Origin: a virus
Reading direction: 5' to 3' (one strand)
Virus record (IMG/VR): IMGVR_UViG_3300037200_000089
Span: 1-41,776 of that record
Length of the DNA: 41,776 nt
The notes beneath the pieces were generated by a model that had not been told where the DNA came from, did not search any database, and saw only the letters and a program-made list of their open reading frames with translations. Positions 8,601 through 35,030 of this stretch are shown here, in pieces; within the stretch, counting starts at the first letter, position 1, and each line of letters begins with the position of its first letter. A program made the position numbers and the translations under genes.

Positions 8601-11600
8601 CGAGGATAACCCGCGCCGCATCCTCGTGTCCAACGATGGCTACGTGATCGACGGCCATCATCAGTGGCTAGATCGGCTGCAAAACGATCCGCACGAGTTC
8701 ATGCCGGTCTTGAAGATTGATGCGCCCGCCGCTGAGATTCTCAAGCAAATCCACGAGTTCCCGAGCGCCGGGATGGAAAAGGCGCCGGACATTTCGCCAA
8801 TCCCGGGCTTGCCGGTGTCTAAAGATGCTGCCGAAAAGAAGTCCACGCGCCAACTACTGGAGGAGTTCATGGGCCGCGTTGCGCAGCGTCATGAAGACGA
8901 GGCGTCAGGCCAAGCCGTGTTGGACCATTTGGAGGACAATGATATTTCGCCGCAGACGGTCGTGAAGACGTTCTGGGCCAAGACGTACGACAATCTGCCG
9001 GACCATATCCAGAAACGCTTCCAACGCATGATAACGGCAGTCACGGGATTTACTCCTGGCGACCCGATCGCCAGCCAGAGGCAGCCCGATGGCAGCGTGA
9101 CTACTATTACTGCAAGGAACTGGCAGGACACCTTCGACCCGCCCGCCGCAGCCAGCAATGCCCGCGATCTTGAGGGCATAGAGCGAGGGTTGATCGTCAA
9201 CATGTATCTTGCGAATCAGGGCATGGGGGCATTAAAGCCAGCGTCAGCACCTGGGCCAACACCACTCTTGCCAGGAAAGCCTGAGCCTGCTAAAAAGACC
9301 CCAGATGAACCGGCCACCAAAAGCGACACACGCACAGAGGCAAGCGGTGTACGCCCGGATGAAGTCAGTCCGGCACAGCCCGGTGGGCGCGGCGGTGCAG
9401 ACATCGACCGCCCCGCAACTCCCGCAGCCGGAGGGCGAAAGCCAGCCCGCACCGACATTCGCGGGCGCGTCCGCTTTAGCGAATCCGATGCAACCCGCGT
9501 AGTCGAGGCCGCGCACGCCGAGCACTCATCGCTTGGCGAGGATTCGCCGACACTGGCCGCCAAGACGTTCGAGGCTCCGGCCCGGGTCGAAGCGCCGCGG
9601 CGCACAAAGGCGCAGCAGGTTCTCAACGACAGCGGGACGGGCTTCAAGGAGATTGCGCCCGACAGCGATCGCTTGGCTGCGGTTCGCACATGGCTCGCCG
9701 ATCAGCGCATGGGCGGCCTGAATCCGACGCCGGGAGACGTGGCGCGCGCCAAGCAGATTCCGCCGGCCACGGCAAAGCGGTTGATCCAGGACCAGCGCCA
9801 GGCTGAGTTCGAGGCGCGAGCGAACGCGAAGGGTTCCGGCATCAAGTACAACGACGCTACGCGCGAGATCAGTTACGACCCGGATCAGTTCGCGCAGTCA
9901 GTGCAGAATATCAACGACCACGGCGGAGATGGCGAAGGCTGGGCGCGCGCGAGCGTGCTCGAGGAACACAAGCACGACCTTGGGACGCAGGCCGCTACGT
10001 TCGCCGGCGGCATCGACAAGGTGCGCGACGAGATCGCAGCCGCGTTGCCGCAAGAGAGCTTCGACGCGATGCGGTCAGTCTACAGGACAATTCACCGGCC
10101 CGAGCATTTGAGCGACGAGCAGGCGGCCACGCACGAGCGCGAACTGATGGCCGAGGAATACATGGCCCGGTACGCGATGCGCCAGCAGGGCGAGAAGCTG
10201 CCCGAGGAGTTCTGGCAGCCGCCGGAGAAGGTTGCGCCGTTGCTCAAAGCTCTGGACGGTCCCCAGCCCGCGGCGGTCTTGGCTCAGTACGCCCGGATGG
10301 AGCACCTCGCGCCAGCCGCGAAGCCAGCGCCATCGTCGCCATCCGTTGCCACACCAGCGAGCGAACGTAAGCAAGCGGAGACTCCGACTCCTGCTGCATT
10401 ACCACGTCCGCCGCCGCGTCAAGCTGACGAGCCAGAGGTTGCAAGCCATAAAGAAAAGCCTGTGCCTGAGAAAAAGCAACGGACCTTCCGCATCCCGTAC
10501 GCGCCGGTTGGCGATCAGCCGGACGTGATCGACTACATTGTTGACCAAGGCGGCATCCAAGGCAGCACTGCGGCCAAGCGCATCGCGAAGGGCAAGGGCA
10601 TTATCGGCGGCGCTGCGGGAGACTACGACGACAGACCGAATCTGAAGGGCATTTACCAGTCTGCGGTTTTCGGCGGGCGCATGGCTGCGGACCAGATGGC
10701 TGAATTGCTCTACCGCGAGCACGCAATAGGCGACGGGACCATTGGCGCAATGTACGCGGCCATCGATCAGGCGATGCAGTCGCGCAAGAGCGGGCGCGTG
10801 GAGAATGCCCGGCAGGCGTTGGAGCAGAAACAAGCCGAACGCTTCCATCGCGACACCGGCACGGAGAAGAAGGGTGACAAGGTTGTTCACGCCGGCAACC
10901 TTGCCGTGGGCGACACGATCACGGTCGAAGGCCAGAAGCTCAAGGTGATCGATGTGGACCCGGAGAGTCTGGATGTCACGCTCGAAGACCACAGCGAATA
11001 TGGAGTTCAGAGGATCGCGAGCGGGAGCGTCATCTACGTCCAGAAGATGCAAAGGGCCACGAAACCCGTGGTCGAATCGCCGGTGTCGCCCGACAAGCTG
11101 ACTGAGCGCGAACAGTTCCGAAACTGGTTACACGTAGCGGCGGACAGCCCGCAAAAACTTCGCGCAATCGATGTTGACCGCGTGATGAGTACGGCGCGAG
11201 ACCCGGCACAGGTTGAGCGTTTGCGGTCCTACCTGCTCTCCGAAGCGCTTGGTGCTGAAGCTAAGGCGGAAGTGCGAAACTGGAAGCCTGACGACAATGT
11301 CCCCACCCTTCGCCGCAATGAAAATCAGGGCGACCTACTGTCCAAGCAAACCGAAGACCTGACGCTAACGGGCGAGACCGGGACCGACCACGAGAAAGTG
11401 CAACGCGCAAAAGAGGCAGCGGCTAAAGCAACTGCTGATGCCAAGGCCAAGCAGGACCGCGAGCAAATGGCGCTCCCGGGAACGACGGAAACACCTTTTA
11501 GCCCCGCGCTCAAAGAGCAGGCCCGCAAGGCGGGGATTTACGGCAAGATCGACGCACCGGCCAAACCGCAGATTACCTACGAGCAATTCGCGGCTCAGTA

Positions 11601-14600
11601 CCGCGACGCGTTCAAGCAGGGCAACAAGTACGATCCGAGGCTCCACGTCGGCTCGCAACACTTCAGTGACAAGATGGCCGCACTTGCCGACGCACATCCC
11701 GAATGGCTCGCGCGTCTGGAAGCGGAGGAAGAAGGGAAGGCTCCCACCCTCAAACCTGAATCATCCCCGCAGAAGAGGCCCAGTCAAAGGGTTGAGGACT
11801 TTAAGCGATTGCTTGCTGCTGGTTATTCACTGGTGCGCGGAGCTTGGTTCCGTCCTGGAGGCGGTGAAGTTGGGAATATGGAGGCGGCATTAGCTCACCT
11901 GAAAGCTGCCGAGGGCAAGTCGGCGGACGACATTCCAACCCCAGAGGTAAGCGTTAGAAAATCGTCCGAGAAGGAAGTGGGCGCCGGAAAGCATCCATTT
12001 CAAGCATTCGCGAACACGAATCAGGGCGGTCGGCTTTCCGTGTCTGGGGGCGGACCTTCTGAAGAAGATGCAAGGGCGGACGCAATCCGAGAGTTTCGTC
12101 AGCAATGGAAGCGGCGCGCCGATTCACGGGTTGCCACTACCCCCAAGGCCGATCCCGAGAATTTCTTCAATCGGTCCAAGCCGGATTTCATCGGCCAGAA
12201 CCGCGCTGGAAATAACGTGTTCGAGGACAAGCGAGGCGTTCGGTCCGTGGACGAAAACGGTGCGCGATCAACTCAATCCGTTGGCTTGCGTCCCGGCGGC
12301 GGGTTCAACATCGACAGCCCGGAGAAACTGTATCGCGCAGGTCATCATGAGTACTTGACCGCAGATGAGCACGGCACGTTCGACCAGATCATCGGTCCTC
12401 CAAAAGCCGCACTCGTAGAGGCCAAGACTCCGGCAACCGCGCCGATCAGCCAGAGCGACATGCAAAAAGGCGCGAGCGCTCTTGCCGATTGGGTGGGGCT
12501 ACGACTAGCCAAACAGCAGCCGTTCAGCCTGCAACAACTATACGACGATGCGGACATGGCTTTCGGAGGAACGCAGGCGAGCGGCGCCTACTCGTTCAAG
12601 GACGCGACCGATTCGCTAGAGCTGGCGGTCAACCGGTGGATCATCGCGCGGCGCGGATTAACCAACCCTGAAGGCTCCGACGATGTAGCTACGGCGCGAC
12701 GCACCATCCAAGACCTGCAAACGCTCCTGCTCGACAATCTTCCAACCCAAGGCCGCCAGCGTAATGAGGAGATGGAGAATTTCCAGCAGTTCTCGACACC
12801 GCCCACGCACGCCTTCCTTGCTAACTGGGTGGCCAATCTGAAGCCCGGAGACACCATGCTCGAACCATCGGCGGGCATTGGTGGACTGGCTGCGTTCGCC
12901 AAAGCGGCCGGCGCACAGGTGGTCGTCAACGAACTGTCGCCGCGGCGCCTGCAATTCCTGAAGACACTGCCTTTCGACCGGTTCTTTAACGAGGACGCAG
13001 AACAGATCAATAACATCCTGCCCGCTGACGTTCGCCCTACGGTCGTCGTGATGAACCCGCCATTTTCGCAAGCCGGCGACCGGATGGGCGGCAAAACCGA
13101 CCTGATGGTTGGCGCTCGCCATATCGAGGCCGCTCTCAAGCGATTGCAACCAGGCGGCAGGCTCGTGGCAATCGTGGGCCGCGGCATGGCGATGGACGCG
13201 CCGACGTTCCGCGAATGGTGGAAGCGCATCGCCGCGAGCAATCAGGTGCGCGCCAACATCGAAATTTCCGGCGACGAGTACAAAAAGTACGGCACCACCT
13301 TCGACAACCGCTTGCTGGTGATCGACAAAGTTGCGCCGGTTGTCGGACAGGAACTGGTCGGTGGGTCCGTCCAGAAGGTTGACGAACTGCCCGCGCTGCT
13401 CCAAGGTGTACGTGATGGGCGCCCAAGCACAGCAAGAATCTCCGATCAACATCCGGGCGCGCCAGCTCCTGCTCCAAGCGAAGTTCGACCCGATTCACGG
13501 CCAGCCAGCAGCGCTCCAAGTGCTACGCCTCGCCCTGGACGAACCGGACAAGGTGAAAGTTCGGCCCGACCTGGCGGAGCAAGCGGAAGCAGAAGTCCAA
13601 GCGCTCCTGTTGATGCCCCAGAACAAAGCCCAGAGCCTACTGAATCGCGCCGGCCTGACAGCGAGCAGGCTCGTGCAGACCAAGACGCTCTCGGAGTTCG
13701 CCCAGGAGCTTCTGGAGCAACTCCTGTCGGTGGTACAGGAAAACCAGCAACCAGCGCCCGAACAGGTTTACTGACGCCGGTCGATGCGGCTGACGTCAGC
13801 ACGCACGAAAAGATCGCCCACGACAAGGACACGCCGGACACTGTTTTCGACACGTATCAGCCGACCGTAAAGGTTGCTGGCGCAAAGGCCCACCCGGCGC
13901 CGTTGGCTGAGAGTTCGGCGATGGCGTCGATCAATCCGCCGGCCACGACGTACAAGCCGAAGATCGACCGCAAGTTGATTGCCGATGGGAGGCTGTCGGA
14001 CGCGCAACTCGAAAACATCGTCCTGGCAGGCGAGTCGCATTCCAAGTTATTGCCCGATGGCAGCCGCCGCGGGTTTTTCATCGGAGACGGTACGGGTGTC
14101 GGAAAGGGCCGTGAGATCGCCGGAACCCTGATGGACAACATGAACCAAGGCCGAAAGAAAGCGGTCTGGATTTCGTACAACTCGAGTCTTTTCAAAGACG
14201 CGCAGCGGGACATGGAAGGCGTAGGACTGGGTAAGGATCAACTCATTGACCATTCCAAAATAAAGAGTGGAGATATCATTGGACAAAAAGAGGGCGTCTT
14301 GTTTTCCACATATTCCACACTAGCGCGAACGACGAGCCAAGGAATTACCGCGCAAGAGAGGGATCGAGGATATCTATCGCCGGGAGATGTCGTCATGCCG
14401 GTGAACCCTTTTTCCTCGAATCCAGATGACGGCATAGATAATCCCAAGGTCCACTTTAGGATTACCGGAAGGAAAAGGGTGTTGCGCATTGGAGGCTCAG
14501 ACGCTGCTGCCTATCCAGCGGTGAACGTGGTGACGGGCGAAGCGGTGAGTCTCATGCACGCCGAGATCAATCACAATCGCTATGTCAGCCGTACAAAGGA

Positions 14601-17600
14601 GATTGCGGCGAGCCGGCTGGATCAGATCGTGAAGTGGCTGGGTCCAGACTTCGACGGCGTGATTGCGTTCGATGAGGCGCACTTGATGGGTAATGCAGTA
14701 TCCATCCGTGGCGCGCGCGGCATGAAGAAGCCGAGCCAGCGGGCGCTCGCGGGGGTTGAACTGCAAAAGGCGCTCCCGAAGGCGCGCATCCTTTACGTGT
14801 CGGCGACCGGTGCAACGGAGGTGTCGAATCTCTCCTACGCTGAACGGCTTGGCCTTTGGGGGCCGGGAACCGCATTTGAAGGCGGCAAAGGTCCATTTAT
14901 TTCTTCGATTGAAGGCGCCGGCGTGGCGGCGATGGAGATGGTTGCGCGTGATCTCAAGGCAATGGGGCTCTATATGGCCCGGTCCATATCCTACCACGGC
15001 GTTACATTCGAGCGATTGGAGCACAAGCTAAGCACCGATCAGACCGAAATTTACGACGAACTAGCCGGCGGTTGGCAGACTGTTCTGGCCAACATGGACT
15101 CGGCCCTGGGGGTGACCGGGCAGGCCAAGAATGGTAACGCAGTATCGCAAGCACGCAGCCAGTTCTGGGGAACGCACCAGCGGTTTTTCAGCCAGGTGAT
15201 GACGGCGATGCAGATGCCGAGTGTGATTGACAAGTTGGAGGAAGACCTGAAGGCCGGTTCGTCGCCGGTCATTCAACTGACCAATACAAACGAGGCGCAA
15301 CTCGCGCGCATCCTGACAGAAAAACAGAAGCAGGCCGAAGAAGATGACCAGGAAGTTGATCTTGAAACCCTGGACTTTACGCCACGGCAGGGGCTCATGG
15401 ATTACATCCAGCGCGGGTTCCCAACCCAACAGTACGAAGAATACACGGACGAGGAAGGCAATGTGCGCACGCGTCCGGCTAAAGACAGCGAGGGAAATCC
15501 AATCCAGAACGCCGAGGCCGTCGCGATGCGCGACCAGATGCTCGACAGCCTGGCATCCCTTCGAGTTCCTGAGAACCCGCTCGACATGATTATAAATCAC
15601 TTCGGCACAGACAATGTGGCGGAGGTCACTGGGCGCACCCGGCGTGTCGTAAAGAAAAAGGACAAGAACGGCGTGGAAAGGATGGTGCAAGAGCCGTGGG
15701 GAAAGACTCATAGCGAGGCCGACGCGGATTCCTTCCAAGCAGACAAAAAGCGAATCCTGGTGTTCTCTGCGGCCGGCGGAACCGGCAAGAGTTATCACGC
15801 CGACCTGAGCGCCAAGAATCAGCGCTTGCGCCAGCATTACATTCTCCAAAGCGGTTGGCGTGCGGACGGCGCGGTGCAAGGGCTGGGCCGAACCCATCGA
15901 TCCAACCAGGCGCAGCCACCCAATTACAGGTTGGTTTCTACCAATCTGAACGCACAGAAGCGGTTCATCTCCACTATCGCGCGTCGGATGGAAAGCCTGG
16001 GAGCTTTAACCAAGGGTCAGCGTGACAGCTCCAGCCAGGGAATGTTCTCGGCGGCGGACAACCTGGAGACTGAATACTCGCGGGACGCCATCCGCGATTT
16101 ATACGGAGACATCGCGCGGGATCACGTCCCTGGCGTGGATGCAGCGGACTTCCAGGCGCAAATGGGACTGCTTCTGAGTGCGGAACCCGACGTCAAGACG
16201 TTCCTGAACCGAATGCTCAACCTTAAGGTCGCCGACATGAATCGCGTCTGGGATGAGTTTTTTGAGCGGATGACTGACCGCGTGGAAATGGCTCGTCAGC
16301 GCGGCGAGCTGGATACCGGCATGGAGACAATCCGGGCGCTTAACGCTGAAGTCACCCAAAAGAGCCTATTGCACACCGATGCTGGGACGGGCGCAAAAAC
16401 GGAGTATCAGCGGGTTCAACTGACGCAGCCCGCGCGAGTAATGACCGTCAATGAGATGCTCAAGCGCGGGGCGAAGAGCGGGTTTGTACGCAACAGGAAA
16501 AGCGGCATGGTCTGGGCAAATCTGGGCGAGCGCAACGTCACGGCCAAGAGCGGCAAGGTTGAATTGCGCCTGATGTTGATGAACCACAAGTACGGCGTCA
16601 GCGACGCACTGCCTTACGACGTCAGCGAGTATTCCGATTCCAAGTACGAGCCCGTTACTTCCGATGCTGCGAAGCCTTTGATTCAAGAGGCGATTGACCG
16701 GACGCCAAAGACCTACGACGAGACCGCGCACATGATTACCGGGGCGCTCCTGCCCATCTGGGCTCGACTCAAGGGTGCTGGATCAGTTCAGCGCATCACG
16801 TTGGATAACGGCGAGCGGATTCTTGGCCGTCGCGAGAGTGAAGAGACAATCGGACCCTTGCTGCGAGACTTCCAGGTTGCACAACAGAACGCCGCAGTCA
16901 CGCCAGAGCGGGTTATTGAACATCTTTTAGCCAATGGGGGGCGAGTGCGGCTGGCGAACGGGACCACTATTACGCGCCGGTCCGTATACCAGGATCGCCG
17001 GTTGGAATTGCAAAACTTGAAGGTCGACCCGCGCGCGCTGACGCCGCTGGGAATGCAGAGCGAGCGCATAGGTTATGAAAGCCGCTACTTCATGCCAGAG
17101 GATAAGGCTGCGGCCATTCTCGCCCGCGTCATGCTCAATAACCCGGTCGTTGAGGGTATGTCGGGCGGCAACGAACTGCGCGCATCAATGCCGATCTTCG
17201 GTTCGACGTTCGACCAGGTCGCCGACGAATACGCGGCCCGCGGGTCCAAAGACCTTGTGGCTGCCGGATACGACGCGGCGCACACGAAAGCGGAGCTGGC
17301 CGGCGAGCAGGTTGCTTCGTCGATCCGGCAGGACCTGCCCGACAAATCGGACCGCGAGGCGATGCCGTTCGTCATCGAGGCCGGGGGCGACCCGCCGAAG
17401 CTTCTGGACTTCCGCGCGAAGGTCGCGGCGAGTAAGGATGCAAAGCTATCCAAGAAGTACGTGCCGGTCATCGATCACGCGATTTCCAACTTCCCGCGCC
17501 TTCAGGCTGCCCGCGCGAATCACGACAAGATCATGGCGGATAACCTGGCCGAACTGCGGGCGGCCGGCGTTGACGTGGGCGAGGTCATAGACTACGTGAC

Positions 17601-19878
17601 GCGCAAGCTCGGCCTGCCCGATGCGGTCAAAGACCTGCTGCCCAATCCGCTGTTTTCGATGGGAACGGGCAATGCCGGAGGATCCCGCTACTTCGCCAAG
17701 GGCCGCGTGTTTGAGTCCTTGGCCGATGCAATCGAGGCCGGATACCCGCCCAAGAGCACGGACCTGGCCGACCTGGACCGGCACCGGATCAGCGCGGCAA
17801 CGCGAATCCTGGAGCACAAGGCGTTCATCAATGCGCTCAAGGCCACGCCTTCGCCTACCGATGGAAAGCCGATCGTCGGCAAGTTCGAGCAGCGAAAGGT
17901 TCTGAGCGGCGAGACCGAGCGCGTGACGCCGAAGGGGTACACGAGCGTCCGCACGACCGCAGGCGAAGTGCCGATTCACGATCAGTTCGCCCATCTTTTT
18001 AAAGACCTGTACGGGGACAGCGCTGTGCGGCGGGTCGCGGCGTTCCGGGCGCTCTTGAAGGCGGCTGCAACGGTCAAGGTCTACACGCTGTTTGGCGACA
18101 CGTTCCACATTGGCCGGCAGCTTTACAAGATGGCGACCGGCGGCGGCGGCCTGCCTTTCACGATGGTCAACGGCAAGCCACAGGTGAATATCCGCAACGG
18201 TCTGGCGCTGATCGAGCGCACCGATGCCGATAACGCGCGGGCGGTCGCCAGCGGCGAGATCACGCAGCGCGAGGCGGATTACGCGCGGGATAATCGCCCG
18301 CAGTTCGAGGAATTGGTCAACGAAGGGCTAAACGTGGGCCGCGTGGCGGACAATTTGGTCCAGCAGGCGCACGCTCACATCCCGGGGATGCAATGGGTTA
18401 ACGACTGGATTTTCTCGAAGCTCTCGCGGTCGGCGATGGTCCAGACGGCGCTGGTGAACTACCAGCGCAATCTCAAGCAGTTCCCCGAGCGCAGCCAGCA
18501 GGAGAACGCGCGCCAGACGGCCAAGGAGATGAACGAGCTATTCGGCAACCTGCAAAATCAGGGGTTGTTCAAAAACAAGACGTTTCAGGACATCGCGCGT
18601 TTGGTTTTTCTGGCGCCGCAATGGGCGGAAAGCCAGTTGCGTTACGAGGGCCGAGCCTACGGGCAGTTCGGGCGCGCGGCCTATGACGCGGTGCGCGGAG
18701 TGCCTCCGGCTGGCGGCGGCGGCGGTAAGGGACCACCAGGACCGCCCGGCGGCCCGAACGGTGCGCCGATTGGCCCGCAGGACGACGCCAATGTTCCACG
18801 CGGAACGCGGGCGCGGCGGTTGCGCCTTGGCAACGCGGCTCGAGCAATGGCGGTTGGATTCACGAGCCTGTTCCTGGCAAATCAAGTCATCAACTGGCTG
18901 TCGCGCAAGCAGTTTACTTGGGACAACGAAGAGGACGGACACAAGCTCGACGCCTTCATTCCCGGCGGCAAACGTGGCTTCTGGTTCGATCCCTTCGAGA
19001 TCGCGGGCGAGTACGCGCACGCGGCGTTCAAGTACGCAGCCCAGCACGAGGACCCCGTGGACGTGGCGACGCACATCCTCAGCAACAAACTCTCTCCGAT
19101 TGGCCGCGGCGTGAAGGACGCGCTGACGGGACGCGATTACGCCGGGCGCCCATTCTTGAGCAACACGGACCGGTTTCGCGAGGCCGCGGTAGACGCCCTG
19201 CCATCGCCGATACCATTGGGGTCGGTCATGGAGAAAGACCCGCGTGCGCCGCTTGGGTATCGCCTGAGTCGCCAGCCTGGCAGCGTGGAAAAGCAGTTGC
19301 TCCAATCGTTCGGCGCAAAGGTGTCCTACGCGCAGTCGCCCCGCTCTCAGATGTTCGCGCTCGCCCAACCGTTCCGGGCTGACAAGGTGGGCACGGATTC
19401 GGCGGGCGAATACACAGCCCTCCGGGCCGCATTGGACAACGACGAAGAAAAATCTTCGCAGGCCGAGGTGCAATGGCTGCTGGGCCGGGGCAAGAGTATT
19501 CCACAGATCGAACGCGCGGTGAACATACAGACCGACCGGCGCGACGGGAGCAAGTACGTGAGGCCTGAGATGTTCGCCGGGAGCGCCGACCGCGAGCAGG
19601 AGTTCGTGAAGTCACTCTCGGCCGGTGACGCCAAGCTCTACGCGCAGGCCCAGCAGGACAACGTCGATAACGCGGTGAAATTCCTGACGTACACAAACGA
19701 CCTGCTCTCGACCAACGCCGACGCCGCCAAACTCGCGCGGATAAACGGCGGCGCGGCCGATGCGGCGAAGGCGCAGGCCAAGAGCATCAAGACTGCCGCG
19801 CCACCGCGCGTCCCGGTAGCCCCCGCGCCCGCAATGGCCGCATCAGGGCCGACGTTTGCGACAGCGTTCGGACGGTGA
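5680..19878 (+). CDS. Giant polyvalent protein: ParB-like, zincin-like, N6-adenine MTase, Strawberry-notch-like helicase
   Basis: This 4732-residue protein begins with a Pro/Ala-rich region (1-215) and a hydrophobic Ala/Gly stretch at about 299-340. The ParB-like motif YVIDGHHQW is at 988-996. A zincin-like segment has EEHKH at 1428-1432, where HExxH would be expected, so the first His is missing; MAEEY follows downstream. A DNA methyltransferase has LEPSAGIGG at 2394-2402 and NPPFS at 2459-2463 (N6-adenine type). The SF2 helicase has GDGTGVGK at 2802-2809, DEAH at 2998-3001 and QGLGRTHRSNQ at 3400-3410, diagnostic of the Strawberry-notch family. About 1300 helical residues follow, with a possible membrane segment near 4390-4410. 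Such architectures are described as polyvalent proteins of phages and conjugative elements, thought to be delivered with the DNA. It is the longest gene by far and several linkers are overprinted. Confidence 0.9.
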   Translation: MDPFGINQPDQASVPGLPSAPDQTGQETAPSPTFPAQTATQEQLPAPTPPAVQPLSSGLIRGVRPVRAGDLQYQPGPAATDSLSTDTQVPNQGVLSADPLGSLRSAGQSPAQPAPVAASVLGLEASANGSGVAPAQPGLSAGAQPYSPDGRMPALATPGALAGASNTGAQQPAGTIAPDAGASPSTSPSTPPTEQPSTQLTQPTIPGMPSAQPAGSAGAVQGKPYSVDAGGNIQFAPGKIADGLLAAHQDGAITSQQIKDLLPKAVDADNAAAAQQTALSNAAQDPLSWEKALAHGAAKGGSFIAGALPAAALAAPLGAATFGVAPVVAGLVGGLISEHAASAVGTELAKHSDTIKSFADAAQAHPYYDAAGNLVSLAIPGVGAAQNLLEAGGVAAEDAAKAGLSYGGQIGAGIKAVAPTLAKGAGAGALFETYGRQPVENVFNSGLDALGISHDPSQAPTAGSVAQNALLGAMLAGEGVKTSDLLNVDISGVMRRGAERENAGIPLDAKFNDSRQDAVNPPLSPAEQALYQKGKIAVVKDVQNGGVAAQAIAGMTGRQATDAGGRPIATTVDLAPKDAGGPATPGAPGPGAGPALPGLPSIPSPVDQQSASGLAGTSAQAPGASSAPGATKQASPQTAPTGSSQSSIEPVITTPSGPAISPPADVDDARTRLTRIGSPTAFDSLRSIAKLPAAQQLPAYQDAISAEGGKVAQNLPSAFSPGDTLSAGPQRFSVLGGDETTTFVSDPSRPGAPARRVATADLQADVVNGRLAYEAVPAAATPVGATQKSTPSPSHAPNESTLVSKPSADQTPATPQSQSNEPNTKTQGASGALPAQAKAPQPPESAARTNGPVIAGLDAPVREGSATGPAGTAKPAADAGSAGAGATGDAGRVEAGAGPVATRVPFAPETGTLGVPRDQMPQVASEHRGAMANFLSARGMDVSAGEMLPGQLKPSQADYNPGKVAKAGEIRMAGEDNPRRILVSNDGYVIDGHHQWLDRLQNDPHEFMPVLKIDAPAAEILKQIHEFPSAGMEKAPDISPIPGLPVSKDAAEKKSTRQLLEEFMGRVAQRHEDEASGQAVLDHLEDNDISPQTVVKTFWAKTYDNLPDHIQKRFQRMITAVTGFTPGDPIASQRQPDGSVTTITARNWQDTFDPPAAASNARDLEGIERGLIVNMYLANQGMGALKPASAPGPTPLLPGKPEPAKKTPDEPATKSDTRTEASGVRPDEVSPAQPGGRGGADIDRPATPAAGGRKPARTDIRGRVRFSESDATRVVEAAHAEHSSLGEDSPTLAAKTFEAPARVEAPRRTKAQQVLNDSGTGFKEIAPDSDRLAAVRTWLADQRMGGLNPTPGDVARAKQIPPATAKRLIQDQRQAEFEARANAKGSGIKYNDATREISYDPDQFAQSVQNINDHGGDGEGWARASVLEEHKHDLGTQAATFAGGIDKVRDEIAAALPQESFDAMRSVYRTIHRPEHLSDEQAATHERELMAEEYMARYAMRQQGEKLPEEFWQPPEKVAPLLKALDGPQPAAVLAQYARMEHLAPAAKPAPSSPSVATPASERKQAETPTPAALPRPPPRQADEPEVASHKEKPVPEKKQRTFRIPYAPVGDQPDVIDYIVDQGGIQGSTAAKRIAKGKGIIGGAAGDYDDRPNLKGIYQSAVFGGRMAADQMAELLYREHAIGDGTIGAMYAAIDQAMQSRKSGRVENARQALEQKQAERFHRDTGTEKKGDKVVHAGNLAVGDTITVEGQKLKVIDVDPESLDVTLEDHSEYGVQRIASGSVIYVQKMQRATKPVVESPVSPDKLTEREQFRNWLHVAADSPQKLRAIDVDRVMSTARDPAQVERLRSYLLSEALGAEAKAEVRNWKPDDNVPTLRRNENQGDLLSKQTEDLTLTGETGTDHEKVQRAKEAAAKATADAKAKQDREQMALPGTTETPFSPALKEQARKAGIYGKIDAPAKPQITYEQFAAQYRDAFKQGNKYDPRLHVGSQHFSDKMAALADAHPEWLARLEAEEEGKAPTLKPESSPQKRPSQRVEDFKRLLAAGYSLVRGAWFRPGGGEVGNMEAALAHLKAAEGKSADDIPTPEVSVRKSSEKEVGAGKHPFQAFANTNQGGRLSVSGGGPSEEDARADAIREFRQQWKRRADSRVATTPKADPENFFNRSKPDFIGQNRAGNNVFEDKRGVRSVDENGARSTQSVGLRPGGGFNIDSPEKLYRAGHHEYLTADEHGTFDQIIGPPKAALVEAKTPATAPISQSDMQKGASALADWVGLRLAKQQPFSLQQLYDDADMAFGGTQASGAYSFKDATDSLELAVNRWIIARRGLTNPEGSDDVATARRTIQDLQTLLLDNLPTQGRQRNEEMENFQQFSTPPTHAFLANWVANLKPGDTMLEPSAGIGGLAAFAKAAGAQVVVNELSPRRLQFLKTLPFDRFFNEDAEQINNILPADVRPTVVVMNPPFSQAGDRMGGKTDLMVGARHIEAALKRLQPGGRLVAIVGRGMAMDAPTFREWWKRIAASNQVRANIEISGDEYKKYGTTFDNRLLVIDKVAPVVGQELVGGSVQKVDELPALLQGVRDGRPSTARISDQHPGAPAPAPSEVRPDSRPASSAPSATPRPGRTGQGESSARPGGASGSRSPSAPVDAPEQSPEPTESRRPDSEQARADQDALGVRPGASGATPVGGTGKPATSARTGLLTPVDAADVSTHEKIAHDKDTPDTVFDTYQPTVKVAGAKAHPAPLAESSAMASINPPATTYKPKIDRKLIADGRLSDAQLENIVLAGESHSKLLPDGSRRGFFIGDGTGVGKGREIAGTLMDNMNQGRKKAVWISYNSSLFKDAQRDMEGVGLGKDQLIDHSKIKSGDIIGQKEGVLFSTYSTLARTTSQGITAQERDRGYLSPGDVVMPVNPFSSNPDDGIDNPKVHFRITGRKRVLRIGGSDAAAYPAVNVVTGEAVSLMHAEINHNRYVSRTKEIAASRLDQIVKWLGPDFDGVIAFDEAHLMGNAVSIRGARGMKKPSQRALAGVELQKALPKARILYVSATGATEVSNLSYAERLGLWGPGTAFEGGKGPFISSIEGAGVAAMEMVARDLKAMGLYMARSISYHGVTFERLEHKLSTDQTEIYDELAGGWQTVLANMDSALGVTGQAKNGNAVSQARSQFWGTHQRFFSQVMTAMQMPSVIDKLEEDLKAGSSPVIQLTNTNEAQLARILTEKQKQAEEDDQEVDLETLDFTPRQGLMDYIQRGFPTQQYEEYTDEEGNVRTRPAKDSEGNPIQNAEAVAMRDQMLDSLASLRVPENPLDMIINHFGTDNVAEVTGRTRRVVKKKDKNGVERMVQEPWGKTHSEADADSFQADKKRILVFSAAGGTGKSYHADLSAKNQRLRQHYILQSGWRADGAVQGLGRTHRSNQAQPPNYRLVSTNLNAQKRFISTIARRMESLGALTKGQRDSSSQGMFSAADNLETEYSRDAIRDLYGDIARDHVPGVDAADFQAQMGLLLSAEPDVKTFLNRMLNLKVADMNRVWDEFFERMTDRVEMARQRGELDTGMETIRALNAEVTQKSLLHTDAGTGAKTEYQRVQLTQPARVMTVNEMLKRGAKSGFVRNRKSGMVWANLGERNVTAKSGKVELRLMLMNHKYGVSDALPYDVSEYSDSKYEPVTSDAAKPLIQEAIDRTPKTYDETAHMITGALLPIWARLKGAGSVQRITLDNGERILGRRESEETIGPLLRDFQVAQQNAAVTPERVIEHLLANGGRVRLANGTTITRRSVYQDRRLELQNLKVDPRALTPLGMQSERIGYESRYFMPEDKAAAILARVMLNNPVVEGMSGGNELRASMPIFGSTFDQVADEYAARGSKDLVAAGYDAAHTKAELAGEQVASSIRQDLPDKSDREAMPFVIEAGGDPPKLLDFRAKVAASKDAKLSKKYVPVIDHAISNFPRLQAARANHDKIMADNLAELRAAGVDVGEVIDYVTRKLGLPDAVKDLLPNPLFSMGTGNAGGSRYFAKGRVFESLADAIEAGYPPKSTDLADLDRHRISAATRILEHKAFINALKATPSPTDGKPIVGKFEQRKVLSGETERVTPKGYTSVRTTAGEVPIHDQFAHLFKDLYGDSAVRRVAAFRALLKAAATVKVYTLFGDTFHIGRQLYKMATGGGGLPFTMVNGKPQVNIRNGLALIERTDADNARAVASGEITQREADYARDNRPQFEELVNEGLNVGRVADNLVQQAHAHIPGMQWVNDWIFSKLSRSAMVQTALVNYQRNLKQFPERSQQENARQTAKEMNELFGNLQNQGLFKNKTFQDIARLVFLAPQWAESQLRYEGRAYGQFGRAAYDAVRGVPPAGGGGGKGPPGPPGGPNGAPIGPQDDANVPRGTRARRLRLGNAARAMAVGFTSLFLANQVINWLSRKQFTWDNEEDGHKLDAFIPGGKRGFWFDPFEIAGEYAHAAFKYAAQHEDPVDVATHILSNKLSPIGRGVKDALTGRDYAGRPFLSNTDRFREAAVDALPSPIPLGSVMEKDPRAPLGYRLSRQPGSVEKQLLQSFGAKVSYAQSPRSQMFALAQPFRADKVGTDSAGEYTALRAALDNDEEKSSQAEVQWLLGRGKSIPQIERAVNIQTDRRDGSKYVRPEMFAGSADREQEFVKSLSAGDAKLYAQAQQDNVDNAVKFLTYTNDLLSTNADAAKLARINGGAADAAKAQAKSIKTAAPPRVPVAPAPAMAASGPTFATAFGR
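5858..6307 (-). CDS. Possible antisense gene: one TM segment plus coiled coil (spanin-like shape)
   Basis: This 149-residue frame lies antisense to the first linker of the giant gene. It starts MAYPESLVALIVLTAVLWGV, a good single membrane segment, followed by a long basic/acidic helix (QERLSRRVAERR and later ERERRRNHSLTLQARGQTRR) and a CPCSDC cluster. This shape fits an inner-membrane spanin (Rz-like). AGG lies 8 nt before the ATG. Caution: in this antisense phase, Ala/Pro-rich sense codons automatically give CNG/GNG codons (Leu, Arg, Gln, Glu, Val), which look helical. No promoter is evident. Real expression is uncertain. Confidence 0.35.
   Translation of the reverse strand: MAYPESLVALIVLTAVLWGVWMGTWMGTRQRQERLSRRVAERRYCWLLREHQELLKQASSRPDCTAVRLLTILVERERRRNHSLTLQARGQTRRRERAEREIARLNAMTQADQPKELPDWVLECPCSDCQSLRDRAGIASPPPEPDARP
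7331..7618 (-). CDS. Possible antisense gene: TM segment plus basic helix
   Basis: This 95-residue frame lies antisense to the second Ala/Pro-rich linker of the giant gene. It begins MIATILSALFVATLALW, then RRERRKRLALERWF and a helical LTADLLETVWTEAQEALDRH. The last 35 residues are Pro/Ser/His-rich and less convincing. It is in the same antisense phase as the frame at 5858-6307 and has the same TM-then-helix design. Either the two are paralogous-looking membrane proteins or both are products of the codon-table effect on Ala/Pro-rich sense codons. A CAGGCTCGATGG context precedes the start. Confidence 0.28.
   Translation of the reverse strand: MIATILSALFVATLALWRRERRKRLALERWFRRDQKLTADLLETVWTEAQEALDRHRDRARPELRVHPHPSAQDQPSSQSACRPHRSPAARSSPQ
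8138..8380 (+). CDS. Possible overprinted gene: small basic protein (+1 frame)
   Basis: This 80-residue frame is nested in the third linker of the giant gene, in the +1 frame. It begins MSRTRKRKEHLERFPRKPKR and ends MLGALGPGQQAMLDGLKPVL. The nested frame uses codons typical of this genome (CTG, CGC, AAG, GCG, CCG). The giant-gene frame at the same place drifts to GCT, CCT, GGA and CAA. No Shine-Dalgarno is seen before the ATG. A highly basic small protein could bind nucleic acid, but no family is recognised. Less certain than the nested frame at 13415. Confidence 0.4.
   Translation: MSRTRKRKEHLERFPRKPKRHNHQKAPPVPMDPSLRVSTLRCGKVARQARRELQSPLPMLGALGPGQQAMLDGLKPVLDP
9305..9502 (+). CDS. Possible overprinted small gene (+1 frame)
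   Basis: This 65-residue frame is nested in another Ala/Pro-rich linker of the giant gene, in the same +1 phase as those at 8138 and 13415. It starts MNRPPKATHAQRQAVYARMK and becomes Pro/Gln/Ala-rich. Codon use in the nested frame is normal, but the host frame is not clearly distorted here. No Shine-Dalgarno. I list it because of its position and phase, with low confidence. Confidence 0.25.
   Translation: MNRPPKATHAQRQAVYARMKSVRHSPVGAAVQTSTAPQLPQPEGESQPAPTFAGASALANPMQPA
13415..13774 (+). CDS. Overprinted gene inside the giant gene (+1 frame), helical protein
   Basis: This 119-residue frame lies in the linker between the methyltransferase and helicase domains. AAGGTG (13402-13407) sits 7 nt before its ATG, a good Shine-Dalgarno. 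The product has a balanced composition and predicted amphipathic helices (INIRARQLLLQAKFDPIHGQ, DLAEQAEAEVQALLLMPQNK, TLSEFAQELLEQLLSVVQEN). Its codons are those of the rest of the genome (CTG, CTC, GCG, GAC, AAG, CAG). In the giant-gene frame the same bases give a Pro/Ala/Ser/Gly linker written with unusual GCT, CCT, CCA and GGA codons. That bias swap indicates the nested frame is the constrained one. Function unknown; a partner of the flanking methyltransferase or helicase is an inference. Confidence 0.65.
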   Translation: MGAQAQQESPINIRARQLLLQAKFDPIHGQPAALQVLRLALDEPDKVKVRPDLAEQAEAEVQALLLMPQNKAQSLLNRAGLTASRLVQTKTLSEFAQELLEQLLSVVQENQQPAPEQVY

Positions 19879-24965: not shown

Positions 24966-25004
24966 TTTGGTGACAGGCGACGCGCGGCGTGGTTGGATGG
25001 CGGG

Positions 25005-25568
25005 GTGATTTTGCAATCGCCCCAGCCCCAGCAGAAAGAGCCAGTCGAGATCAAGTTGCTGCTGGTGGACTTGGATCAGACGGTACGCCGGAAGAAAAGC
25101 AGCCCGAACGGCTTTATCAACGAGCCTCTCGACCAGGAGATCATCCCGGCAGCCGCAGAGGCCCTCGAACGATGGAAGGGCTGCACGATCATCGCCTGCT
25201 CGAATCAGGCTGGCGTGGCTGCCGGTTACATGACGCTCGGCCAGTGCATCGATGCGATGGTTTACACGATGGAACTAGCGCCGCAGATCAAGAGTGTTTT
25301 CTTCTCGCCGGACTCTGACGGCAAGCGTTGTTTCTGCGTTCGCCCCGACGGATCAATCCAGACCGTCTTTTGCGAGACATTCAAGGATTTGTCCATCCGC
25401 ACGTTCCGCAAGCCGGGCTGCGGGATGCTGAAGCTCGCCATGTTCCGGTACGGTGCAAGCAATCTCGAAACCGGCATGATCGGCGACCGGGACGAGGATC
25501 GGTTGGCGGCAATCTCGGCGGGTGTCAACTTCATGCCGGAGACGCGGTGGTACGAGAGCGGGCCATGA
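25005..25568 (+). CDS. HAD-superfamily phosphatase (PNKP/HisB-like)
   Basis: This 187-residue protein has all four HAD motifs: DLDQT at 22-26 (nucleophile and acid Asp), CSNQAG at 65-70 (motif II Ser), K136 in FRKPGCGML, and GDRDED at 160-165. The SNQAGVAAG loop and the layout are those of the polynucleotide 3'-phosphatase/HisB-like branch. It would remove a phosphate from a sugar or a nucleic-acid 3' end. I chose the GTG at 25005; a TTG at 24993 would add four residues. No kinase domain is attached. It opens a run of overlapping small genes and may serve end repair during infection, which is inferred. Confidence 0.8.
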   Translation: MILQSPQPQQKEPVEIKLLLVDLDQTVRRKKSSPNGFINEPLDQEIIPAAAEALERWKGCTIIACSNQAGVAAGYMTLGQCIDAMVYTMELAPQIKSVFFSPDSDGKRCFCVRPDGSIQTVFCETFKDLSIRTFRKPGCGMLKLAMFRYGASNLETGMIGDRDEDRLAAISAGVNFMPETRWYESGP

Positions 25569-31654: not shown

Positions 31655-31993
31655 ATGATCTACGAAACCTACAGGACGAACGCGGCGGGCGAGGAGCTTC
31701 TCGTCACGACGCAAATCGAAGTGCTGGAAATCGACCGGTACGGAAACGTCGATCTGGACGAGGCGCGCGTGACGAAGGTCGAGAACGGGGACACGACCAT
31801 TCCCGGCGTGACGGTCGGGGAGTTGCTGGTGCTGACCAAACAGGAGCACGATGCGGCGATTGACTGGGCGCTGCGCGAAAACGAGCGGGAGGCGGTCCGA
31901 GCCGAACTGGACGATGACGACAATCCCTACGACGACATGCCGTTCAGCGAGCGCTACAACCTGCAAGACGACGGCCCGATGCACTATGTCTAA
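31655..31993 (+). CDS. Small acidic protein
   Basis: This 112-residue acidic protein starts MIYETYRTNAAGEELLVTTQ and ends in Asp/Glu-rich helices (ELDDDDNPYDDMPFSER). GC content returns to the high level of the head module here. It is coupled to the RHH-like gene by an 8-nt overlap (ATGTCTAA). An anti-repressor or DNA-mimic role could be imagined from the charge, but there is no direct support. Confidence 0.5.
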   Translation: MIYETYRTNAAGEELLVTTQIEVLEIDRYGNVDLDEARVTKVENGDTTIPGVTVGELLVLTKQEHDAAIDWALRENEREAVRAELDDDDNPYDDMPFSERYNLQDDGPMHYV

Positions 31994-32207
31994 ATCGATC
32001 CGCACAACGCTCACGATGCAGGAGGCCGTTCACGAGATGGCGCTCGCAGGGATGACGCAAGGCAAGTTTCGCAGCTTGTCGCTTTACTTGGAGGACTTGG
32101 TGATCCGGCACGCCGATGCGCGCGCCAACCGATCCAACTACGCGGCAGCCCGCAAAAATAGCTTGTTGTGTGGTTCGGCGTCTGGTATTCGCAAAACAGC
32201 AGGGTAG
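31986..32207 (+). CDS. RHH (CopG/Arc)-like small DNA-binding protein
   Basis: This 73-residue protein has the pattern SIRTTLTMQEAVHEMALAGM, then KFRSLSLYLEDLVIRHAD, like the second helix of ribbon-helix-helix regulators (F-S-x-Y-x-x-x-L-I). It overlaps the stop of the acidic protein by 8 nt. Its own last ten bases are also the first ten bases of the tRNA at 32198. RHH proteins bind operators as dimers, so it may control the surrounding tRNA/portal region. The assignment rests on motif shape alone. Confidence 0.5.
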   Translation: MSKSIRTTLTMQEAVHEMALAGMTQGKFRSLSLYLEDLVIRHADARANRSNYAAARKNSLLCGSASGIRKTAG

Positions 32208-32276
32208 AGAAGTCTGGTCGTTCTCGTCAGGCCCATAACCTGAAAATCGTCGGTTCAAATCCGACCCCTGCCACCA
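32198..32276 (+). tRNA. tRNA-Met (CAT) with initiator features
   Basis: A full cloverleaf with encoded CCA can be drawn. Acceptor GCAGGG pairs with CCCTGC, with an A1-C72 mismatch. D stem GAGA/TCTC includes A11-U24. Anticodon stem TCAGG/CCTGA encloses loop CCCATAA (anticodon CAT), and T stem GTCGG/CCGAC follows. A 1-72 mismatch and A11-U24 are hallmarks of bacterial initiator tRNA. The third hallmark, three G-C pairs in the anticodon stem, is only two of three (A29-U41). The D loop AGTCTGGTC and the CGTCGGTTCAAATCCG segment read like bacterial tRNA-fMet. Position 33 is C instead of U. The 5' end overlaps the stop of the preceding gene. Confidence 0.85.
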
Positions 32277-32291
32277 ATCTTTCAAACCTTT

Positions 32292-32438
32292 ATGTCTTTT
32301 AAAACCGCGCAAAAATCCATCGCCAAGAAAGACGGTGTGCCCATGAAAAATGCGGCTGCAATATTGGCGTCGGCATCGAGGAAGGCTTCGCCCGCTGCGG
32401 TGAAAGCGAACCCGAAACTACTCAAGGTCCGCAGATAA
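32292..32438 (+). CDS. Tiny basic protein between tRNA genes
   Basis: This 48-residue protein begins MSFKTAQKSIAKKDGVPMKN and ends ASPAAVKANPKLLKVRR. I recall similar endings (ASRKASPAAKKANP-type) in many short phage proteins of unknown role. It is highly basic (about 12 Lys/Arg) and likely binds nucleic acid. It begins 15 nt after the first tRNA and ends 6 nt before the second, so all three may be one transcript. Confidence 0.6.
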   Translation: MSFKTAQKSIAKKDGVPMKNAAAILASASRKASPAAVKANPKLLKVRR

Positions 32439-32444
32439 TTTTCC

Positions 32445-32516
32445 CGGGATTTAGCCCGGAGGCAGGGCGCGCGGCCTGGGACCGCGACATCGCAGGTTCG
32501 AGTCCTGCAATCCCGA
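32445..32516 (+). tRNA. tRNA-Pro (TGG)
   Basis: Acceptor CGGGATT/AATCCCG, D stem GCCC/GGGC with a 7-nt loop, anticodon stem CGCGG/CCGCG with loop CCTGGGA (anticodon TGG), 5-nt variable loop, T stem GCAGG/CCTGC with loop TTCGAGT, discriminator A. CCA is not encoded. As in the other tRNA, position 33 is C instead of the near-universal U. It would read proline codons, abundant in the giant protein's linkers. A promoter begins 6 nt downstream. Confidence 0.85.
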
Positions 32517-32561: not shown

Positions 32562-35030
32562 ATGGACGCAGGACCAGACGCCAATTCCCTCCCGCCCGGT
32601 TCAGGCGGTTCACCGCCGGACCCCACATCGGCGCGCTTTAGCCCAAGCGGACCGATTACTCTCGGGCTGCCCGGCGCACAGCCTTCGGGCGACCCCACGC
32701 CGCCGGTCTACGATCAGACGACGCTCGTCCTGACGCCGGATCAGGAGTCGCGCTTTGCGTCCTACGTTCACGCGCGGATCGACGAGTGCCGGCAGGAGAT
32801 GGGGCTCAATATGTATTCCAGCCGCGGCACTGCGGTCATGGCCAGCGGCATGAGCCTGCATTCGAGCCGGTGGAGCACGGGGATTGATTCGGTCGAGGAT
32901 AGCTGGGCGTTCCGGCGCGAACTCAACCAGCGGCACTACGACGGCGATTACTCTGACCGAAAGCGCGAGGTGGGCAGCGTCTTCCAGGCGAGCAATCATT
33001 CGTTCAACCTGCCCAAGCACTGGACGCGCACGCTCGCGTCCAAGCTGGATGAGGTGCAACTGCTCACAGAACCGTTCTGGGCCGCCATGCCGCAGCGGAC
33101 GACTTCCGAGGATCGGTCGAAGGCGGTCGAAGCGTATCTACAGGACCAGCTTTCGCAGAGCAATGTGCGCGGCACCCTCCAAGAGGCGCGGCAGGCCGGC
33201 TTGATTCGCAACGAGGCGCCAGTCAAGGTTTCCTGGGTGCGGCGCGCGTCCACGTTCAAGGGGCCGGCGCGCGTGCTGGTGAACTCCGAAGTGGCGCCAG
33301 CGGCCGGAGCAGACGGCTATCCGGTCACGCTCCCCGATGGCTCGCCCATGCTCAATCCCGTGCCACTGGCCATGTCGGACGGCAGCGCGATCGATCCCGG
33401 CGCACCCGTGCGCCTGCCCAACGGAGACTACATTTTCGAGCATGACGACGTGATCCCGGCGGTTCCCAAACCCGGCCAGGTCTTGCCGCCGGGCGCGATG
33501 TGCCTGCTCAAAGAGCCGAGCTTTATCATGCCGCCGCAGGGACAGGCGGTCTACCAGGACTTCCCGGCCTTGGAACAGGTCGAGGTGGATTACGAGGGGT
33601 TGCAGGCGGACACGCTGTATTTCAAGGACTTCCTCTGGCCGGTGCGCGCTGCGTCGCTCGATAACGCGGACATCATGGTCCACGTCTACGATGCGTCCTT
33701 GGGTGAGCTGCGGCGCACGTTCGGCGGGTTCGACACGTTCGAAGTCTACGCTTCGAGTTTTGGGACCGCCGAGGTTTCGCGCGGCAAGCAGGAGCAGGGC
33801 GAGATCGAGCGGGGATCGATCCGGGAACTGGTCGGCGTCCACGAGTGCTACGTGCTGGGCGACCCCGACGAGACCGGAGAGGACAAGTGGATTTTCTGCC
33901 CATACGACTACCAGCGCAAAAAGTTCATCTTCCGCGACTACCTCAAAAATCACACGAAGAAGCCGCCCTTCGTTCTGATCCCCGGCGTCGAGAAGGTCCA
34001 GAATCGGGCCTACGGGGCCGGCGTCTACGAGATGTCCCGGGACAAATCGCACTACGTCGATCTGATGTTCAACCGGGTGAACTTCTCGGCGTCGCGCTCC
34101 GGAGTGGCAGACTTCCTGTGCGAGGACGCGCTCGTGGCGACGCAGGACGGAGCCTTGGCATTCACGGTGGGCGACGGCAATATTTGGAAGATCAAGATGA
34201 ACTCCGGCTACGGGCCGGACAAGCCGCCGCTGTTTCGCGTGAAGCTCGAAGACGTGCCGGAGGCCGCCTTGGAGTTGATGGAGAAGATGATCCAAGCCGG
34301 GCAACTGGAATTTGGCATCGTAACCGCCGGCGACACCGCGGCGAGCAACCTGCCTTCGCAAAACACGGCGACCGGCATCATCGACATCCAGCAGACGGGC
34401 AACGCGCTTCAGAACAAGATCGGCGACGTCCACGCGCGGGCGTTCACGGACGTGCTCGAACTCTGCATGGACATTGCGCTCGAAAACATGCCGGACAACG
34501 TGGCGTTCATGATGCCAGACGGCCAGACGCTCGCGATGCTCAATCGGGAAGAGATTCGGGCGATGCCGCGGGATGTGCGCCTGTTGCTGACTCGGGCGCG
34601 GTCCGCCGACAGCCTCCAAAAGAACGCGCAGGCGACGCAGTTGGTGCTGCAATACTTGGGGCTGCCGAAGTGGCAACAGAAGCTGGTGCGGCCCTTTTTC
34701 ATCAACCAGCTTTCCAGCTTGGACGTGCAGGACGCCGACGAGCGGTTGCCGGATCCCACGCCGGAGCAAATTCAGGCCGAGGCGCAGCAGTTGGCGCAAG
34801 GCGCCGCAGCGCCCCAGAAGCCAGCGGCGGCAAGCGTGGTCGCCAAGCTCACGGACTTCGCGCCGTCCGAGCAGCAGCAGCTCAAGGCGAACGACTACAA
34901 GATCACGCCCGCGAGCCCGCAGGAACTGGCGCAGATGGCCGCCACGGCGGCGCAGAACCGCGAGACCCCGGCACCGGCGCATTCGCTCGGGGCGGGTTTG
35001 CACTCGCTACCGCCGCCGGCCGCCGCGTAG
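32562..35030 (+). CDS. Portal protein
   Basis: This 822-residue protein would form the dodecameric ring at the capsid vertex. A disordered Pro/Gly-rich start (1-55) precedes a long alpha-rich body. Features of P22/N4-type portals are RSKAVEAYLQDQL, APVKVSWVRR, VHECYVLGD, PFVLIPGVEKVQNRAYGAGV with a following YVDLMFNRVN helix, and a long C-terminal helical region (AFTDVLELCMDIALENMP). The tail is Ala/Gln-rich. Its size is typical of portals with a long barrel. Unusually, it lies about 29 kb from the terminase and 9 kb after the capsid gene. It has its own N15-class promoter. Confidence 0.8.
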   Translation: MDAGPDANSLPPGSGGSPPDPTSARFSPSGPITLGLPGAQPSGDPTPPVYDQTTLVLTPDQESRFASYVHARIDECRQEMGLNMYSSRGTAVMASGMSLHSSRWSTGIDSVEDSWAFRRELNQRHYDGDYSDRKREVGSVFQASNHSFNLPKHWTRTLASKLDEVQLLTEPFWAAMPQRTTSEDRSKAVEAYLQDQLSQSNVRGTLQEARQAGLIRNEAPVKVSWVRRASTFKGPARVLVNSEVAPAAGADGYPVTLPDGSPMLNPVPLAMSDGSAIDPGAPVRLPNGDYIFEHDDVIPAVPKPGQVLPPGAMCLLKEPSFIMPPQGQAVYQDFPALEQVEVDYEGLQADTLYFKDFLWPVRAASLDNADIMVHVYDASLGELRRTFGGFDTFEVYASSFGTAEVSRGKQEQGEIERGSIRELVGVHECYVLGDPDETGEDKWIFCPYDYQRKKFIFRDYLKNHTKKPPFVLIPGVEKVQNRAYGAGVYEMSRDKSHYVDLMFNRVNFSASRSGVADFLCEDALVATQDGALAFTVGDGNIWKIKMNSGYGPDKPPLFRVKLEDVPEAALELMEKMIQAGQLEFGIVTAGDTAASNLPSQNTATGIIDIQQTGNALQNKIGDVHARAFTDVLELCMDIALENMPDNVAFMMPDGQTLAMLNREEIRAMPRDVRLLLTRARSADSLQKNAQATQLVLQYLGLPKWQQKLVRPFFINQLSSLDVQDADERLPDPTPEQIQAEAQQLAQGAAAPQKPAAASVVAKLTDFAPSEQQQLKANDYKITPASPQELAQMAATAAQNRETPAPAHSLGAGLHSLPPPAAA

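Follow-up and report, generated by a model that had tools for sequence, protein, structure and literature searches.

The gene at positions 32198-32276 (plus strand) of the window, by which the whole analysed stretch of 41,776 nucleotides is meant, is a genuine tRNA-CAU gene. As judged from comparison with cellular and phage genes, its product is of the bacterial initiator type and is neither elongator tRNA-Met nor tRNA-Ile2. This product is probably functional as an initiator of the bacterial type. Its likeliest role would be to supplement the host initiator, or to take its place, while the phage infects; putative escape from a host nuclease is a reasonable alternative.

In the 41,776-base record ARAGORN calls two tRNAs, tRNA-CAU (32198-32276) and tRNA-Pro(UGG) (32445-32516). 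The former matches RF00005 in the Rfam search (52.5 bits, E 1.4e-8), and its cloverleaf folds at -26.7 kcal/mol (z = -3.36 versus shuffles). The gene call made by the initial annotation is confirmed. The features of the tRNA and of its surroundings are as follows.

31986..32207, plus strand: small ORF of 73 codons, in frame with ORF 31851-32207; its stop lies inside the 5' end of the tRNA
32198..32276, plus strand: initiator-type tRNA-CAU, 76 nt plus the encoded CCA (ARAGORN, Rfam, structural parse)
32198..32204, plus strand: acceptor 5' strand AGCAGGG; A1xC72, then G2:C71, C3:G70 and A4:U69 (structural parse)
32207..32225, plus strand: D arm GAGA-AGUCUGGUCGU-UCUC; A11:U24, a D loop of 11 nt, and A14:U21 as a possible fifth pair (parse, fold, covariation)
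32227..32243, plus strand: anticodon arm UCAGG-CCCAUAA-CCUGA with A29:U41, G30:C40, G31:C39 and C33 (structural parse)
32249..32265, plus strand: T arm GUCGG-UUCAAAU-CCGAC (structural parse)
32274..32276, plus strand: encoded CCA end (sequence, structural parse)
32292..32438, plus strand: small basic ORF, roughly 48 aa long, separating tRNA-CAU from tRNA-Pro (read from sequence)
32445..32516, plus strand: tRNA-Pro(UGG) (ARAGORN, Rfam)
32562..35030, plus strand: portal-like protein gene, downstream of tRNA-CAU (phrog_1216, E 9.3e-5)

In the structural parse A1xC72 is the sole mismatch of the acceptor stem (AGCAGGG/CCCUGCC), and base 73 is A. Both the A1-C72 mismatch and A11-U24, which the initial annotation had taken as initiator identity elements, are confirmed, as is an anticodon stem with two G-C pairs out of three (30:40 and 31:39 are G:C, 29:41 is A:U). 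The description of the D and T arms as fMet-like stands for the T arm, where position 64 is the only difference from E. coli metZ across positions 49-65, but not for the D arm, which is less fMet-like than claimed because of its 11-nt loop and the A13:U22 pair in its stem. These two features had been overlooked, and so had C33 in place of U33.

The CAU anticodon alone is compatible with an initiator, an elongator tRNA-Met and a lysidine-type tRNA-Ile2. From CAU tRNAs of the loci collected, position-wise log-odds were computed for an initiator-like set (A11:U24, unpaired 1-72; n=124) against an elongator-like set (C11:G24, G1 paired; n=43). On this scale the window tRNA reaches +58.7; hiding positions 1, 72, 11 and 24 lowers the score to +43.7, which still exceeds the leave-one-out initiator median of 32.9. 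With these positions hidden, each set has two misclassified members, so the set labels are imperfect. Alignment to E. coli genes gives identity at 49 of 60 positions for metZ, 28 of 60 for metU and 30 of 60 for ileX. Moreover, metU and ileX have G1:C72 and C11:G24, whereas the window tRNA has an unpaired 1-72 and A11:U24. The nearest annotated cellular gene (BLAST) is one of two tandem Salmonella tRNA-Met genes adjoining amiC, a neighbourhood that is annotated as holding metZWV in E. coli. On identity, log-odds and the absent G1:C72 and C11:G24, elongator tRNA-Met and tRNA-Ile2 were rejected as extremely improbable. The cloverleaf with CAU, the lack of a Watson-Crick pair at 1-72, R11:Y24, the formylation elements and the overall profile all agree with initiator membership, and the initiator-type reading of the initial annotation gains support from the log-odds and the metZ alignment. 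Archaeal initiator tRNAs carry an A1:U72 pair, in place of which the window tRNA has A1xC72.

The main determinant for the formyltransferase is C1xA72, and A73, G2:C71, C3:G70 and G4:C69 are minor ones (PMC9976931). The window tRNA agrees with this formylation set in A1xC72, A11:U24, G2:C71, C3:G70 and A73, with A4:U69 replacing the minor element G4:C69. Contacts with 16S are made at 29:41 and 30:40, and flipping of 30:40 causes a 20-fold loss (PMC11497404); G30:C40 is retained in the window tRNA. Among phage R11:Y24 tRNAs no pattern is more frequent than A29:U41 with G30:C40 and G31:C39 (53/123), which 25/54 of the cellular ones also have; A29:U41 is not odd. A matching U41 was found throughout the Verrucomicrobiota sample.

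These elements are consistent with the following course of events. The phage tRNA would be processed by host enzymes and charged by the host MetRS via the CAU anticodon. Host methionyl-tRNA formyltransferase could formylate it, since 1-72 is unpaired and 2:71 and 3:70 are preferred pairs. Entry into the 30S P site could be provided by G30:C40 and G31:C39, and the tRNA would then top up or partly replace the host initiator pool in infection, as thought for other phage tRNAs. Activity could be reduced by any of three departures: C33 for U33, U21 for A21, and A1xC72, the mismatch C1xA72 in reversed order.

U33 is nearly universal in tRNA anticodon loops. An exact-pattern scan of IMG/VR found 106 contigs with the C33 motif GCCCATAACC...GGTTCAAATCC. 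Most of these tRNAs parse as initiator-type with a varied, mostly unpaired 1-72, and A1xC72 is present in 12 of the 87 parsed. The cellular matches listed for this motif come from Weissella, Leuconostoc, Elusimicrobia, Saccharibacteria, archaea and others. In one Weissella and one Elusimicrobia genome, all initiator-motif matches found by the motif search are C33, with no U33 copy; C33 being the sole form among these matches, it appears compatible with initiation. In samples of Verrucomicrobiota and Actinomycetota, C33 accounts for 1/58 and 1/62 initiator-motif matches, both genomes having been chosen for C33. Phage contigs sharing one fixed T arm comprise 6 with C33 versus 72 with U33, the latter count including elongators. 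As far as these searches reach, C33 is a minority form common to phages and some bacteria. Bacteria carry C33 initiator-type genes, so that the proposals that C33 is phage-specific and that it breaks the tRNA were rejected and not upheld, respectively. An 8-kb contig of an Actinomycetota MAG (Trebonia, locus L353) carries an A1xC72, C33 initiator-type tRNA; the same genome also has a normal U33 initiator elsewhere, and L353 may be a binned phage contig.

The 11-nt D loop recurs, with the same or nearly the same letters, in initiator-type tRNAs of phapecoctavirus ESCO13 and of the Caulobacter phages CcrBL10 and CcrMagneto, and in several IMG/VR contigs; it was found in none of 54 cellular R11:Y24 tRNAs, a set chosen for C33. 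Across nine related phage tRNAs, 189 of 189 cells are paired and nine pairs are changed on both sides, a covariation score matched by 0 of 500 shuffles. Full pairing together with two-sided changes indicates that the fold is maintained. The common long D arm suggests a phage-borne lineage or convergence. Two phage contigs (L049, L061) hold GTC-anticodon tRNAs whose long D arm is that of the initiator-type tRNAs (GAGGAGUC.GG..GUCCUC). C33 and the long D loop are each seen in other tRNAs, and C33 initiators are present in some bacterial genomes, so neither feature rules out function.

No promoter or terminator near the tRNA-CAU gene rises above chance. Besides the portal-like protein, the virus encodes a terminase small subunit, a terminase-like large protein and a weak head-protein match. 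Peptide-pattern searches of IMG/VR found no relatives of the portal or terminase, and tblastn in phages gave distant terminase matches only, with the portal unmatched. One third of the record is occupied by an ORF of 4,732 aa (5680-19878) for a Strawberry-notch-type helicase, in which an AAA_34 domain (E 6.5e-110) is accompanied by a Helicase_C_4 domain (E 2.9e-80); a HAD-hydrolase-like protein is encoded at 24993-25568. The phage tRNA-Pro is UGG, while proline codon counts over 13 genes are led by CCG (357, versus 125 for CCA).

The initial annotation linked the tRNA to leaderless virion mRNAs, and a specialized role in selecting start codons on phage mRNAs that lack an SD or a leader was considered accordingly. 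A strong SD precedes 2 of 21 gene starts in the window and is absent from the other 19, start assignment being uncertain, and SD strength at the starts does not exceed background (median -2.1 versus -3.0 kcal/mol). Such SD-poor starts fit SD-independent initiation, which may simply mirror a host that is itself SD-poor. The leaderless link is not shown: only 2 of 25 starts have a TANNNT box within the 20 nt upstream, transcript ends are unreadable from sequence, and leaderless mRNA cannot be inferred. Furthermore, nothing about the window tRNA is known to give leaderless mRNAs an advantage, and phages with many other hosts, mycobacteria and Caulobacter among them, also carry initiator-type tRNAs. 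Specialization of this kind is improbable. Still less probable is that the gene is a passenger, or the remnant of a host tRNA gene left by integration (att). Some phages do use tRNA genes as integration sites, and lysogeny that depends on tRNA has been described (PMC10865867), but the window tRNA is full-length, including the 5' half and CCA, and paired throughout except at 1-72; its D arm resembles those of other phage tRNAs, and integrase is absent among the proteins scanned.

A nuclease-resistant replacement initiator, in which C33 and A29:U41 would let the phage copy survive VapC-type cutting of the anticodon stem-loop by the host, is the more credible of these alternatives, if still rather unlikely. 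Changes in the anticodon loop are frequent in phage tRNAs and are predicted to protect them from anticodon nucleases (PMC10264068), and tRNA-fMet is cut in the anticodon stem-loop by VapCs of several bacteria (PMC7180214, PMC8522696). The 106 C33-motif IMG/VR contigs, set against single C33 matches (1/58 and 1/62) in two bacterial phyla, each in a genome chosen for having it, point the same way. However, cells too frequently have A29:U41, C33 initiators are found in Weissella, Elusimicrobia and Saccharibacteria as well, and among phages that infect VapC-bearing Shigella, tRNA-fMet genes are reported to be generally avoided (PMC10264068). A broader version, in which a phage-lineage initiator (long D loop, reversed 1-72 mismatch, C33) would have been selected to replace a nuclease-cut host initiator and to keep SD-less phage translation running, is speculative and unlikely. 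Supplementing or replacing the host initiator remains the preferred role. The gene is a clean case of an initiator tRNA encoded by a little-known, SD-poor phage, and, with only two tRNA genes detected in the fragment, it does not simply belong to a large tRNA set. Concrete positions at which any tuning of phage initiators towards nuclease escape could be examined are provided by the C33 loop and the common 11-nt D loop.

Initiator tRNAs are already known in phages. Annotated phage records matching E. coli metZ number 345, three of which are short unannotated records of 89-100% identity that may be host DNA; 293 match over at least 80% of metZ length, and mycobacteriophages account for 127. A11:U24 is present in five of the six isolate phages parsed. 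Methionine and formylmethionine tRNAs of T5 (Chen et al. 1975, reference 49) and a cyanophage tRNA-fMet are both cited in PMC4810235. The metZ-matching records, the isolate examples and T5 in 1975 show that such genes are not unusual in phages, and the earlier statement that phage tRNA-Met genes are usually of elongator or Ile2 type is not supported as a ground for surprise.

Compared with E. coli metZ, from which it differs at 11 of the 60 aligned positions, the window tRNA lacks C1xA72, G29:C41, U33, C13:G22 and the 9-nt D loop. Phage T5 likewise encodes an initiator tRNA, but as part of a large tRNA set. The tRNA-Met of mycobacteriophage Khaleesi (MK112545, L426) shares A1xC72, A11:U24, A73 and initiator-type stems, and differs in its full GGG/CCC stem, U33 and 9-nt D loop. 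Caulobacter phage CcrBL10 (MH588544, L002; annotated tRNA-fMet) and related Ccr phages have A11:U24, an unpaired 1-72 and an 11-nt D loop with a GGAG-type arm, whereas C1xU72, U33, C73 and genomes of 220 kb set them apart. The tRNA-Met of phapecoctavirus ESCO13 (L001, 1507-1585) has the identical D loop AGUCUGGUCGU and initiator-like ends with A1xC72, yet its anticodon loop is UUCAUAU, with U31:G39 and U73. Apart from a few uncommon bases, the window tRNA is an ordinary phage initiator, of a type known since 1975.
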